Below are positions 57,567 to 62,324 of a DNA stretch of 64,000 nucleotides, piece by piece. A model generated the notes under the pieces. That model was not told the origin of the DNA. It ran no database searches and saw nothing but the letters and a program-made list of their open reading frames with translations. The position numbers and the translations under genes were made by a program. Source of the DNA: Chitinophagales bacterium (lineage in GTDB: Bacteria > Bacteroidota > Bacteroidia > Chitinophagales > Saprospiraceae); contig JAAFJY010000021.1 in the NCBI GenBank assembly GCA_013299105.1, positions 1-64,000 on the forward strand, written 5' to 3'. Within the stretch, counting starts at the first letter, position 1; the number at the start of each line of letters is the position of its first letter.

Positions 57567-59864
57567 ATGTCTCAATCTCTCAGGTTTTTGGGTTTTTTCT
57601 TTTTTTGCTGTGTTTTTAATACAGTTTTTGCCCAGGTCAGCGTCAGTGGAGTGGTGCGCGATGCCCTTGATAAGCGTGCATTGGCCAATGTCAGCATCAA
57701 GGCGCAGGGCCAAAACAATGGCACCAGCACCGACGAAAAGGGTTTTTTCAGCCTGTTGAGTGCTTCTGATACCTTACAAATCAGCCTCCTGGGCTATGCC
57801 ACTCAATTGACCCCCATCCAAGGCGACGAATCTTGGGTGGAAATACAGTTGCAAGAAGAACAGTTGGCCTTGCCTGAATACACCGCCCGTTCCAGTCGGG
57901 AAGCCAGCGTTTATTTGCGTGCGCCTGCCACCATCACCCGCATCACTTACGAAGCCTTGCGCCGCGACGATGCCCTCAACATCGCCAATGCTTTCAACCG
58001 CGTGCCTGGGGTGTACATGCAAAGTGGGACTTTGAGTACCAACCGCATCACCATTCGTGGCATCGGCAATCGCTCGCCTTTTGGCACCGCCAAAATCCGC
58101 GCCTACCTCGACGAAATCCCCCTGACCAGTGGGGTAGGCGAAACCAGCCTGGAAGACATCGACCTGAGCCTCTTGCAAAACGTAGAAATATGGAAAGGGC
58201 CCAGCGCCAGTACTTATGGTGCAGCTTTGGGCGGGGTGGTTCACCTGCAAAGTATGCCCGAAACATGGAGCAGCGATCGCCAAATGCAAGTGCAACAAAG
58301 CGCCCAAGTGGGCAGTTATGGCACTGAACGCTATGTGACCCAAGTCAATTATCGGGACGAAACGACTTCACTTTTGCTCAATTACAACCGCAACCACAGC
58401 GACGGCTACCGCGCCAACAACCGCTACGACCGGGCTGGTTTTGCGGCCATTGGGCAGGTCAAGGCCGGGAAACGCCAGGTTTTTAGCCTGTTTGTCAACC
58501 AAGTGGGCTTGAAAGGCTTCATCCCCAGTTCAATCAATCGGACCGATTATGAGAAAAACCCCAGTATCGCTGCCGCCAATTGGGCCAGGGTCAAGGGTTT
58601 TGAAGATTATGACAAAACCATCGCAGGTTTGTCACACCGTCTGCTGCTCAAGGAATGGTCCGGCAATCGCCAACTGAGCAGTGTAGTGAGCCTGTTCACC
58701 ACCTCCCGCAGCAATTACGAATCGCGGCCCTTCAACATCCTGCGCGAAAACAGTACCGCCGACGGCCTGCGCGCCCTGCTCGAATACCGCCAAAATCGCG
58801 AACGCCGCCGCCCCAACCTGCAAGTGGGCCTCGAATACTTCAACGAGCGCTACAACTGGCAAACCAATGCCACCAAAGTAGGCACACTTGATACCCTACT
58901 CAGCGACAACCAGGAATTGCGGCGCTACTACAACCTTTTTGCGGAAGGGAACTGGGACCTGAGCAGCCGTTGGTTTCTCTCGACGGGGCTCAACCTCAAC
59001 CAAACTCGTTATCAATTGAGTGACTTGTTCCCCCGTGATCGGCGTGACTTGAGCGGGCAACGGGAGTTTGACCCGGTTTTATCGCCGCGCTTGAGCTTGG
59101 GCTACAAACTGCCCAAGCAGTTGATGTTTTTTGTAACATTGTCACACGGTTTTGCTTCGCCAACCTTGGAAGAAACCCTCTTGCCCAGTGGCCAGATCAA
59201 CCCCGAAATCCGCCCCGAACAAGGCTGGAACTTTGAAATCGGCAGCCGGGGGGCTTACTTGGGTGGCAAACTGAGTTACGAGTTGTCGATCTATCGCATG
59301 AGCATCCGCGACTTGTTGGTGGCCCGCCGCACCGCTGAAGACGCTTTCGTCGGCATCAACGCGGGCAAAACCCGGCACGATGGCCTGGAATTGGGCCTCA
59401 ACTGGGCCAATCAAGGCAAAAAAGGGGCTTATCGGGTTTATTTGAGCTACAGCTATGCTGACTATACTTTCCTGGAATTCGTGGACGGCAACAACAATTT
59501 TTCAGGTAATGCCCTCACTGGCGCTCCGCCACATCACCTGACAATGGGATTGGAAGGCAATTTGAGCCTGGGTTTTTACGCCCACCTGGGCTACGAATGG
59601 GTGGATCGTTACCCCATCAACGATGCCAACAAGGTCTTCAACGACGCTTATGGTGTACTTAACCTGCGCAGCGGTTGGCGCAAAACCCTGGGCAAATCCC
59701 TGAGCCTGGATGCCTTTTTGGGCCTGCAAAACCTGCTGGATGAAAAATATGCGGGCATGACCCAAGTCAATGCCCTGGGAGTGGGTACAGCCCTGCCCCG
59801 GTATTTTTATCCCGGCTTGCCCAGGAATTGGTATGGAGGATTGAGCTTGGGGTGGAAAATTTAA
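57567..59864 (+). CDS. TonB-dependent receptor with CarboxypepD_reg-like domain
   Basis: A 765-residue outer-membrane receptor. A signal peptide (ends NTVFAQ) precedes a carboxypeptidase-regulatory-like domain (VSVSGVVRDALDKRALANVSIKA), the plug (ITRITYEALRRDDALNIANAFNRVPGVYMQ, ITIRGIGNR, LQNVEIWKGPSASTYGAALGG) and the 22-strand barrel, ending with GLSLGWKI. The plug resembles siderophore receptors more than SusC carbohydrate receptors, since no SusD lies nearby; the ligand is not identifiable. Start at 57567; 15 residues upstream lack a signal. Confidence 0.92.
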   Translation: MSQSLRFLGFFFFCCVFNTVFAQVSVSGVVRDALDKRALANVSIKAQGQNNGTSTDEKGFFSLLSASDTLQISLLGYATQLTPIQGDESWVEIQLQEEQLALPEYTARSSREASVYLRAPATITRITYEALRRDDALNIANAFNRVPGVYMQSGTLSTNRITIRGIGNRSPFGTAKIRAYLDEIPLTSGVGETSLEDIDLSLLQNVEIWKGPSASTYGAALGGVVHLQSMPETWSSDRQMQVQQSAQVGSYGTERYVTQVNYRDETTSLLLNYNRNHSDGYRANNRYDRAGFAAIGQVKAGKRQVFSLFVNQVGLKGFIPSSINRTDYEKNPSIAAANWARVKGFEDYDKTIAGLSHRLLLKEWSGNRQLSSVVSLFTTSRSNYESRPFNILRENSTADGLRALLEYRQNRERRRPNLQVGLEYFNERYNWQTNATKVGTLDTLLSDNQELRRYYNLFAEGNWDLSSRWFLSTGLNLNQTRYQLSDLFPRDRRDLSGQREFDPVLSPRLSLGYKLPKQLMFFVTLSHGFASPTLEETLLPSGQINPEIRPEQGWNFEIGSRGAYLGGKLSYELSIYRMSIRDLLVARRTAEDAFVGINAGKTRHDGLELGLNWANQGKKGAYRVYLSYSYADYTFLEFVDGNNNFSGNALTGAPPHHLTMGLEGNLSLGFYAHLGYEWVDRYPINDANKVFNDAYGVLNLRSGWRKTLGKSLSLDAFLGLQNLLDEKYAGMTQVNALGVGTALPRYFYPGLPRNWYGGLSLGWKI

Positions 59865-59950
59865 TGGTTAGTTGTTAATGGTTAGTGGTTAATGGTTAGT
59901 TGTTAATGGTTAGTTGTTAATGGTTAGTGGTTAATTGTTAATGGTTAATG
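59862..59950 (+). repeat. TTAATGGTTAG tandem array after TonB receptor stop
   Basis: Seven or so imperfect copies of TTAATGGTTAGTKG, starting within the TAA stop of the receptor gene. The same unit (inverse strand) occurs at 63877-63925, where the partial gene's stop lies in the array. Confidence 0.7.
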
Positions 59951-60355
59951 GGGGCTTGTGGGGGATTGCTGGCATATCAACCACAGAAAATCGACCAATT
60001 TGGATTAGTGAGCTATTTAGATGAGAAAATGCCCTCAAGGGATATTCGATACGCCCATTTTTTGTTTGTCATTCAAAAAACTGAGCAGGGGACTTTCCTA
60101 GAGGGCAAGGAAGGTACTGCTTGGACTAAACTTTCCTACGGTTGCGGCAGGCCGAAATGCTTCCAACACATCAATGAATTCGGTATGGTAAATCAGTAGC
60201 CTACCCAAAAGTGCCTTCAAGATACATTTGAAAATCTTGAAGACACTTTTTATGTTGATCAAATATAAAGTCTAAGTTCTACGCCTTCTTTTATCCAAAC
60301 CCTCACGCTATCTTTACCCAAAACCCATTTTCAACCCTTCAAAGATAGCGTAGTC
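59951..60355. other. gap before LCIB-type gene, with hairpin
   Basis: A possible 83-residue frame at 59948-60199 has no signature. Immediately after it, AAAAGTGCCTTCAAGAT (60207-60223) pairs with ATCTTGAAGACACTTTT (60234-60250), a terminator-like stem. It probably ends transcription of the TonB receptor. Confidence 0.5.
60207..60250 (+). terminator. hairpin terminator
   Basis: A 17 bp stem with one mismatch, followed by T's, between the TonB receptor and the carbonic-anhydrase-like gene. Confidence 0.65.
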
Positions 60356-61102
60356 ATGAAAAAAAGAGAGAAGCTGGCCATCATCCAGCGCTTTTACCCC
60401 AACGCCAGCACTACTGTGGACAGCGTCAATCGCCTCATTGACGTAGTAGAAGGCTATCTGGACCTTGAACCTGGTCAGGTCATGCACGCCGACAGCATTT
60501 GCAGCGACGACGTGAACAGCATCCAATATCCTTCGCGTGCGCACGAGTTTTTGGGGCCTTTCAACATGGGCGGCCTGGACGGGTTTCCCTTCACGGGCCT
60601 CACGGGCATGGGAGCTTTTGCCAGTCATGTGCCCGACGATGGGGCTGTTTTTGTCTACTACGGCCCCCACATTGGCATCTCCAAAGATGGAACCCTCGGC
60701 GAAATCTCCCGCATTGGCCAATCGCACCGCTCTGGTTGCTGCGGTGCGGCCAAAGGTGCACTCAACAAATTGCTCAACAAGCAAATTGTACCTGGTAATG
60801 TCACCGAGCTGGATTACCAGATGAATACCATCGAGCAAATTTTACTGAAACAGGAAGCCCGCATCCTTGCTACCGAGTACCCCTTGCATGAGGCCACCGA
60901 AGTCATTTACGAGGCCATCGATGCCCGCATCAATGAGTTGGTGGACAAAACCAAGTACAATTGCCGTTATGTCATCCTGGTTGGAGCCATTTTGATCAAC
61001 AGCGATAGTGACATGGGCTCGTTTACGGCCACCAAACGATTTGATGTGATCGACTTGAGCAGCAACGAGCGCGAAAGTTTGTTAGGTAAATTCCCACTTT
61101 GA
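60356..61102 (+). CDS. LCIB/theta-type carbonic anhydrase-like protein
   Basis: A 248-residue protein that looks like a full member of the LCIB/C carbonic anhydrase family (theta class, beta-CA-like fold), which interconverts CO2 and bicarbonate in algae. Candidate zinc ligands are Cys49 in HADSICSDDVN, His91 in GAFASHVPDDG and Cys128 or Cys129 in HRSGCCGAAKG. Asp51/52 and Arg61 could form the dyad. It is cytosolic, with no signal peptide. The bestrophin-family gene follows on the same strand 224 bases later, an association that recalls the LCIB/bestrophin bicarbonate apparatus of green algae. Recognition is from motif memory, not a search. Confidence 0.75.
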   Translation: MKKREKLAIIQRFYPNASTTVDSVNRLIDVVEGYLDLEPGQVMHADSICSDDVNSIQYPSRAHEFLGPFNMGGLDGFPFTGLTGMGAFASHVPDDGAVFVYYGPHIGISKDGTLGEISRIGQSHRSGCCGAAKGALNKLLNKQIVPGNVTELDYQMNTIEQILLKQEARILATEYPLHEATEVIYEAIDARINELVDKTKYNCRYVILVGAILINSDSDMGSFTATKRFDVIDLSSNERESLLGKFPL

Positions 61103-61325
61103 GCACCTAAGGCCCACAGAAAAATAATTTGTAAAATTGGCAAATGCTTTGCCCCACTTTCACGTAGCGCGTGACACAGCGCGGGATTGGAACACGGATA
61201 AAATCGGATTTGGGTGTGCTTGTTTGGGTTTGAGTGTGAAGAAACCTCGTTTTCAATTGGAGACAAAAGTTTAAGCTCGAAGCCCCACACCCGAACGCAC
61301 ACTTACACACTCCACACCTATTTTT

Positions 61326-62324
61326 ATGTACACTAAACGCAACTACGGGTTTTGGCTGACCTTTAAGTGGTCCCGAAAACCCTTCTACCTGGGCATGGCT
61401 TATGCCCTAATCGTGGTTTTGACCCAGCATTTTGGCAAAAAACACTTCAATCTCGACCTCTCCCTGCCTTGGCAACCGATCAGTGTGATGGGGATTGCGG
61501 TGGCTTTTTACCTGGGGTTTAAAAACAACGCCAGTTACGACCGCACCTGGGAAGCCCGCAAAATCTGGGGCGGGATTGTCAACAGCAGCCGCACTTTTGG
61601 CATGGCAGTAGTATCTTTTGTACAGGGTGAAAATGAAAAAGAGGTCAAAAAGCGCTTGATTTATCGCCACATTGCCTGGATGACCGCTCTGCGTTACCAA
61701 TTGCGGCTCCCACGTGAATGGGAGCACTTGCAGGAGAGGATCAAAGGCATCTATTTTCCAGAAACTTCTGACAAGTGCTTCGATCACCTGGAAGAAGAAC
61801 TGAGCACTTATTTGTCGGCAGAGGAGGTGCAAAAAGTGATGAAAAAAACCAATATCGCGGCCCAGATCATGCTGCACCAAGGGCGGGATTTGCGGAATTT
61901 GCACGACCAGGCTTACTTCAACGATTGGCGGCACATGGAATTGCACAAGCTCCTATCGGCCTTGTACGATGAGCAGGGGCGCAGCGAACGGATCAAAAAC
62001 TTCCCTTTTCCTCGCCAATACGCTTCAGCGGCTTTGTGGCAAACAGTGCTTTTTTCCCTGGCCATTCCTTTCGGCCTTTTGAATGTGTACGGTGAAAACG
62101 AAACCCATGAAATCTGGGCAGTTGTACCGCTTTCTGCCCTGCTGATCTGGGTATTCTTTTTGATGGAAAAAATTGGAGACTATTCAGAAAATCCTTTCGA
62201 GGGCTCGTACAATGACATTCCCATCACCACGATTTCACGCGGGATCGAAATTGACCTGCGGCAAATGCTGGACGATGAAAACATCCCTCCACCCATCGCT
62301 GCCGACCATCATTTTCAGATGTAA
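61326..62324 (+). CDS. bestrophin-family anion channel
   Basis: A 332-residue membrane protein with the bestrophin signature FKNNASYDRTWEARKIWGG near residue 65 and ENPFEGSYNDIPITTISRGIEIDLRQML at the C-terminus. Four hydrophobic spans (residues about 22-38, 52-70, 235-255, 262-282) match the pentameric bestrophin fold. Family members conduct chloride or bicarbonate; some bacterial members prefer cations. The upstream neighbour encodes an LCIB-type carbonic anhydrase, so bicarbonate transport is a reasonable but unproven role. Confidence 0.88.
   Translation: MYTKRNYGFWLTFKWSRKPFYLGMAYALIVVLTQHFGKKHFNLDLSLPWQPISVMGIAVAFYLGFKNNASYDRTWEARKIWGGIVNSSRTFGMAVVSFVQGENEKEVKKRLIYRHIAWMTALRYQLRLPREWEHLQERIKGIYFPETSDKCFDHLEEELSTYLSAEEVQKVMKKTNIAAQIMLHQGRDLRNLHDQAYFNDWRHMELHKLLSALYDEQGRSERIKNFPFPRQYASAALWQTVLFSLAIPFGLLNVYGENETHEIWAVVPLSALLIWVFFLMEKIGDYSENPFEGSYNDIPITTISRGIEIDLRQMLDDENIPPPIAADHHFQM

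Follow-up and report, generated by a model that had tools for sequence, protein, structure and literature searches.

In Chlamydomonas, data have been cited for an interaction of LCIB/C with the bestrophins BST1 and BST3, and a two-step scheme has been proposed in which LCIB/C produces HCO3− and BST1-3 transport it (PMC6708349). As presented in the passages of that paper concerned with the scheme, BST1-3 are thylakoid proteins of a photosynthetic cell, and a light-driven pH gradient powers the scheme (PMC6708349). A second thylakoid set, for ion transport, includes the bestrophin VCCN1 and the K+/H+ antiporter KEA3, which act on one membrane and its proton motive force (PMC6570773, PMC12996068). 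The portions of these two papers dealing with this set describe VCCN1 as a chloride channel and name no carbonic anhydrase in it (PMC6570773, PMC12996068), and thylakoid transporters are stated to adjust photosynthesis independently (PMC6570773). KpBest of Klebsiella pneumoniae is a Na+ channel with an I-I-F neck, in which residue I66 governs anion/cation preference and the I66F change moves the channel towards Cl−; the same account holds that the neck alone is insufficient to read selectivity (PMC8496536).

The DNA analyzed here, a stretch of 64,000 nucleotides (the window), carries an LCIB/theta-type carbonic anhydrase gene and, directly downstream in the same orientation, a bestrophin-family channel gene, both open reading frames being present (Table 1). 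These are the same two protein families as in the Chlamydomonas LCIB/LCIC and BST1-3 system, whereas the bacterial genes are neighbors in presumed heterotrophs, with K+ channels or exchangers in some relatives. By analogy, the bacterial gene pair would be the genetic counterpart of the algal LCIB/C-BST link, and the VCCN1/KEA3 set may resemble the bacterial bestrophin set.

The LCIB and bestrophin genes of the window

The preliminary description, made from the letters alone, had placed the first gene in the LCIB/theta family and the next in the bestrophin family, and Pfam profile searches bore out both assignments. The 248-amino-acid protein matched PF18599 (LCIB_C_CA) over residues 19 to 233 (E value, 2.3e−76; 256.4 bits against a cut-off of 25), and the match covered profile positions 2 to 223 of 223, which is the whole domain. 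The 332-amino-acid protein matched PF25539 (Bestrophin_2; E value, 1.4e−52). Each gene was the single match to its profile in the 7.67-Mb genome, and NCBIfam gave no match for either protein up to an E value of 1.

By sequence, the solved chains closest to the window LCIB were 6kfs, 9vzj/9w05, and PtLCIB4 (5b5y); the solved LCIB and LCIC (5k5w, 5b5x) were weaker matches. The AF2 model (pLDDT, 87.7) had query TM scores of 0.77 to 0.80 to 6kfs/5b5y and Foldseek E values of 1.9e−18 and 3.6e−17 to 6kfs and 5b5y, respectively, and thus has the predicted fold of the solved members. PtLCIB4 and 6kfs also share its metal-site residues, at ∼28 to 30% identity in the structural alignment. The metal-site positions proposed earlier (Cys49, His91, and Cys128 or Cys129) held up in alignment: C49, D51, H91, R119, C128, and C129 were invariant in all 83 members of the window LCIB clade. 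Among 14 more distant LCIBs, C128 was lost in four and C129 in none, which makes C129 the better ligand candidate. By alignment and family motifs, some of these metal-site and catalytic residues would bind Zn, and the protein presumably hydrates CO2. Counted on the alignment, H91 corresponds to PtLCIB4 H88 and S50 to S47; position 50 is Ser in the window and Cys in 6 of the 83 clade members. The S47R form of PtLCIB4 has reportedly lost activity.

LCIB as the sole anhydrase of the cell was ruled out by the presence of β-carbonic anhydrase in 22 of 35 LCIB genomes, G000 included. Carriage of LCIB on a plasmid or phage was likewise ruled out, as a tblastn search of 72,556 plasmid records and 50,697 phage records gave no match at an E value of 1e−5. 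Five LCIB genomes had two β-carbonic anhydrase genes that were adjacent or separated by up to ∼3 kb (Table 1). In Spirosoma lacussanchae, the LCIB frame was found in two open pieces of ∼100 amino acids each, possibly a broken gene or a sequencing error.

The solved chain nearest to the window bestrophin by sequence was KpBest, a member of the same family with the same predicted fold. The bestrophin model (pLDDT, 86.5) had target-normalized TM scores of 0.84 to 0.92 to 50 KpBest chains among the matches listed, and a Foldseek E value of 1.7e−12 to the best of them. Its neck residues I57-F61-F65 aligned to I62-I66-F70 of KpBest.

The pair lies between a TonB-dependent receptor gene upstream and, on the opposite strand downstream, a PfkB-type sugar kinase gene, with no K+ channel or exchanger beside it. 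A direct tandem repeat lies just at the end of the TonB receptor gene, before LCIB. The spacer between the two genes contained no terminator-like site on the plus strand, scan matches being at or below the shuffled number, and one weak promoter-like match (positions 61099 to 61128). The element TANNTTTG before the LCIB gene matches the Bacteroidota −7 promoter motif and is a possible promoter of the pair; its support from the scan is weak, the window having 50 matches to this motif against 48 expected. The promoter and terminator scans, both at chance level, were set aside as evidence on transcription. The two genes may be cotranscribed. Two loci with the gene order and bestrophin type of the window (L052 and L071) have gaps of 3 bp, compared with 223 bp in the window.

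Table 1. Location of the features discussed, in window positions or, for other genomes, in genome or locus coordinates
Feature	Location	Strand	Basis or remark
LCIB/theta-type carbonic anhydrase gene, 248 aa	60356..61102	+	PF18599 match, solved relatives, AF2 model, conserved metal-site residues
Bestrophin-family channel gene, 332 aa, neck I-F-F	61326..62324	+	PF25539 match, model versus KpBest, neck alignment
Spacer between LCIB and bestrophin, 223 bp	61103..61325	+	Gene coordinates; promoter and terminator scans
TANNTTTG, candidate promoter of the pair	60223..60230	+	∼125 bp before LCIB start; motif scan
14-bp direct tandem repeat	59861-59951		TTAATGGTTAGTGG, 6.5 copies
Paired β-carbonic anhydrase genes	G182:C16:539228-540364		
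Paired β-carbonic anhydrase genes	G262:C2:903116-904398		
Paired β-carbonic anhydrase genes	G190:C23:128134-130824		
Paired β-carbonic anhydrase genes	G292:C1:972059-973896		
Paired β-carbonic anhydrase genes	G277:C2:228009-231286		
LCIB frame in two pieces, Spirosoma lacussanchae	L075:8001-8768		
β-Carbonic anhydrase gene after a broken bestrophin gene	L173:4986-6589 (genome G140)		
K+ channel gene with internal stop, locus L262	G292:C1:2870013-2870675		

Recurrence of the pair and probable exchange of partners

Across a sample of 395 genomes spanning the phylum Bacteroidota, LCIB was found in 35, and the type present in the window was rare (5 of the 395; 232 to 264 bits, with all other LCIBs at ≤199 bits). 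Bestrophin was the immediate neighbor in three of these five genomes (G000, G292, and G277) and was located elsewhere in the other two (G190 and G206). None of the 30 genomes with lower-scoring LCIBs had the pairing: 29 had no bestrophin match at all, and G065 had its bestrophin elsewhere. Adjacency is a property of one LCIB clade.

An LCIB alignment was also scanned against 84,980 species genomes, and the best 80 of 307 relatives, ranked by similarity to the window protein, were kept. Within these best 80 of 307, a bestrophin lay on the same strand within 150 bp of LCIB at 46 loci, 41 with bestrophin first (including L119, a bestrophin fragment at a contig end) and 5 in the LCIB-bestrophin order of the window. 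The remaining loci had a bestrophin 0.7 to 5 kb away (three), none (29), or none with short flanks (two). LCIB can therefore stand alone, since the fetched stretch was free of bestrophin at 31 of the best 80 of 307 loci, two of which had short flanks. Gaps were ≤20 bp in 39 of the 46 linked loci; five were negative, some owing to ORF starts being called at the longest ORF. When neighbors were clustered for 97 loci, a set that includes ∼17 beyond the best 80 of 307, bestrophin was at position −1 in 42 and at +1 in 5, and every other cluster reached ≤5 on either side. Linked loci occurred in at least 13 named Bacteroidota genera. Two more labels, Limnohabitans and Chthonomonas, may be misassigned because they come from metagenome bins. 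Adjacency thus extends well beyond one genome; it occurs in either gene order and involves more than one bestrophin lineage. The functional coupling proposed earlier is supported as a reading of gene order. The three contrary outcomes listed in the preliminary description (no profile match, loss of the ligands, and adjacency in one genome) were checked, and none was observed.

All LCIB-linked bestrophins belonged to one long subfamily, with no linked copy of other types among the 47 examined. The middle neck residue was F in all 47, as in the window, and the first was T in 41 and I in 6, so that their necks read T-F-F or I-F-F, compared with I-I-F in KpBest (PMC8496536). In this survey, which covered the bestrophins fetched first (40 bestrophin loci fetched later lie outside it), F was also the middle residue in 42 of 48 unlinked long-type copies, in three of five bestrophins near but not adjacent to LCIB, and in 1 of 13 other bestrophins. 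The F neck was accordingly ruled out as an indicator that a subfamily member is linked to LCIB; because 42 of 48 unlinked long-type copies share it, it is a subfamily trait.

LCIB proteins of the best 80 of 307 loci were 62 to 80% identical to the window protein. Among 22 bestrophins compared with that of the window, 20 were 36 to 42% identical, and the two from L052 and L071, which have the same gene order as the window, were 66 to 68% identical. The window and Chryseobacterium locus L057 share 78% identity in LCIB and 42% in bestrophin, and the gene order is reversed. In a bestrophin tree of 114 linked and unlinked rows, linked copies fell in several clades with unlinked ones between them; the tree requires 13 changes between the linked and unlinked states, against a mean of 38 after shuffling, and starred branches make at least 10 of the 13 necessary. 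The LCIB tree (97 rows; L119 scored as unlinked and three loci with bestrophin nearby as linked) gave 17 changes, five of which are forced by starred branches. Both are quick trees with SH-aLRT support only, and such change counts cannot separate gain of the pairing from its loss. Two distinct bestrophin clades (window/L052/L071 and L115/L117/L118) have the LCIB-bestrophin order, an indication that the pairing was gained independently at least in part. From these sequence comparisons, partners seem to have been exchanged and the pair brought together more than once.

Companion genes and bestrophins without LCIB

A small P-loop K+ channel (Pfam Ion_trans_2) with the filter T(S/T)IG(F/Y)GD was present in 16 of the best 80 of 307 loci and in two further loci from the 395-genome sample. 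The channel gene was upstream of bestrophin in 17 loci, and in L082 it lay directly before LCIB, without a bestrophin. Of 47 LCIB-linked bestrophins, 15 had this channel at a distance of ≤150 bp, compared with 1 of 102 bestrophins having no LCIB in the fetched stretch, the latter being a selection of places from genome scans and not an exhaustive set. The channel family is rare, occurring in 6 of the 395 genomes, three of which had no adjoining bestrophin. With these counts, and with 16 of the best 80 of 307 loci carrying it, a K+ channel as a constant part of the set was ruled out. At L262, the K+ channel upstream of bestrophin-LCIB has a stop inside the family match, and its frame ends at 190 amino acids, shortly past the filter.

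A Na+/H+ exchanger gene followed the pair in L115, L117, and L118, followed bestrophin in L105 and L112 (LCIB being ∼5 kb further), and followed LCIB in L122; among the 102 bestrophins lacking LCIB, 3 had an exchanger at ≤150 bp. The K+ channel TMEM175 completed the order bestrophin-LCIB-TMEM175 in L124, and L130 had the order P-loop K+ channel-TMEM175-bestrophin-small ORF-LCIB. Other recurrent neighbors, within six genes of LCIB in the 97 loci, were SDR (11), response regulator (11), helicase (9), aldehyde dehydrogenase (7), and DoxX_2 (7), none of them evidently connected with CO2 or ions. Neighbor annotation covered representatives of 20 of the 45 clusters listed and 30 neighbor proteins in all, a minority of the neighbors.

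Several conserved blocks were seen around the pair. DoxX_2 and a ∼140-amino-acid protein without a Pfam match lay upstream of the K+ channel in L035, L057, L082, L125, L127, L128, and L130, in some with aldehyde dehydrogenase. A conserved ORF (165 amino acids in the representative; no Pfam match) directly upstream of bestrophin-LCIB in L085, L087, L095, and L126 might be another partner. Two contigs of Sphingobacterium endophyticum (L117 and L118) carried near-identical aldehyde dehydrogenase-AraC-SDR-LCIB-bestrophin-Na+/H+ exchanger blocks.

Unrelated protein families occupied the same slots beside the 102 bestrophins without LCIB. Four of these bestrophins (L164, L217, L224, and L231) had a β-carbonic anhydrase gene at ≤150 bp on their own strand, and a fifth such gene directly followed a bestrophin broken by an internal stop (L173), giving 5 of 102. 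In L239, a β-carbonic anhydrase gene was 101 bp from bestrophin on the opposite strand. By hand estimate (two anhydrase genes per ∼4000), ∼0.05 same-strand anhydrase neighbors would be expected by chance in 102; the five observed are above chance, a small number. A nonhomologous anhydrase beside five bestrophins suggests that what such loci have in common is the reaction itself. TMEM175 was within 150 bp of 6 of the 102, and independent cases are fewer than six because L220, L227, and L228 share one genus code. In L224, genes for β-carbonic anhydrase, bestrophin, and TMEM175 follow one another with a 4-bp overlap at each joint; judged by its gene families, L224 would be a full functional analogue of the LCIB-bestrophin-K+ channel set.

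Proposed function and alternative readings

LCIB and bestrophin probably form a CO2/bicarbonate and ion module for control of pH or membrane potential. The features that suggest this, all read from sequence, are family membership, conserved metal-site residues, recurrent partnership, the use of one bestrophin subfamily, and the occupation of equivalent positions at other bestrophin loci by unrelated families of anhydrase and K+ channel; the direction of flow, the physiological role, and physical contact between the two proteins are what we infer beyond them. A soluble cytoplasmic LCIB would interconvert CO2 and HCO3− plus H+, and the bestrophin, whose family consists of pentameric channels and whose neck here is of the anion-selective type, would pass HCO3−, and possibly also Cl−, across the inner membrane. 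CO2 permeates membranes freely, so the equilibrium HCO3− gradient would follow the pH gradient, and an anhydrase together with a HCO3− channel would amount to a proton conductance. At an inside-negative potential, HCO3− would exit and H+ remain, and cytoplasmic pH would fall or excess membrane potential be relieved; only a medium far more alkaline than the cell interior would reverse the flow. Balancing charge or protons could pass through the K+ channel or Na+/H+ exchanger that accompanies the pair in some relatives. As an inflow of acid equivalents would be favored, control of alkaline pH or membrane potential would suit the pair better than carbon uptake, and carbon concentration is the less likely role.

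A wider reading is offered tentatively. It may be that a modular, scattered, and recurrent bacterial device combines a carbonic anhydrase (LCIB or β), a HCO3−-passing bestrophin, and a K+ channel (P-loop or TMEM175) into a proton conductance shuttled by CO2, through which cytoplasmic pH and membrane potential are adjusted. Such a device would have been assembled repeatedly from interchangeable parts, and its LCIB-bestrophin core reused or reinvented by algae for carbon concentration.

It is unlikely that the bestrophin serves mainly Cl− or other anions and the anhydrase is a local pH/bicarbonate regulator or general stress gene, the two forming a mobile stress cassette without joint CO2 function. 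The SDR, aldehyde dehydrogenase, and DoxX_2 genes near LCIB and its patchy distribution across the 395 genomes would fit a cassette of this kind, but a nonhomologous carbonic anhydrase adjoins bestrophin at the five loci without LCIB described above, and the plasmid and phage collections held no LCIB match.

Inorganic carbon acquisition is a quite unlikely role. The bestrophin would admit HCO3− from alkaline or bicarbonate-rich water and LCIB would equilibrate the pool for anaplerotic carboxylases, a heterotroph version of the algal carbon-concentrating mechanism. In the sections of PMC6708349 on this mechanism, algal LCIB/C and bestrophins, both serving it, are cited as interacting, and human bestrophins are stated to transport HCO3−. 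On physical grounds, however, a passive channel would take up the anion against an inside-negative potential only with a large alkaline gradient. A β-carbonic anhydrase is, moreover, already present in all five sampled genomes with the window-type LCIB (the window genome and four others), and the 30 annotated neighbor proteins, outside which most neighbors lie, included no carboxylase; for these two reasons, the earlier suggestion that the pair feeds carboxylases is not favored.

Adjacency without functional meaning, as inherited or hitchhiking gene order, might be suspected from the close relationship of some linked loci and from the loci where the neighbor is absent, but is very improbable given both gene orders, several bestrophin clades, the spread over named genera, and the predominance of short gaps.

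Among the matches listed from open-licence literature, there was no description of a bacterial bestrophin-carbonic anhydrase operon. The families themselves are known; the recurrent bacterial combination with interchangeable parts appears to be new as far as those matches go.

LCIB and bestrophins are both required for the algal carbon-concentrating mechanism, and the bacterial pair bears on how far they may work as one unit. The compact bacterial pairs, many with gaps of ≤20 bp, provide simple systems of two or three proteins that would allow direct measurement of HCO3− permeation, of its coupling to an anhydrase, and of charge balance by a K+ channel. A recurrent anhydrase-bestrophin-K+ channel set would suggest a CO2-tied physiological role for a group of bacterial bestrophins. 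The pair, accompanied by a K+ channel in about a third of cases, hints at a bacterial device for control of pH or membrane voltage, akin to part of the algal carbon pump.
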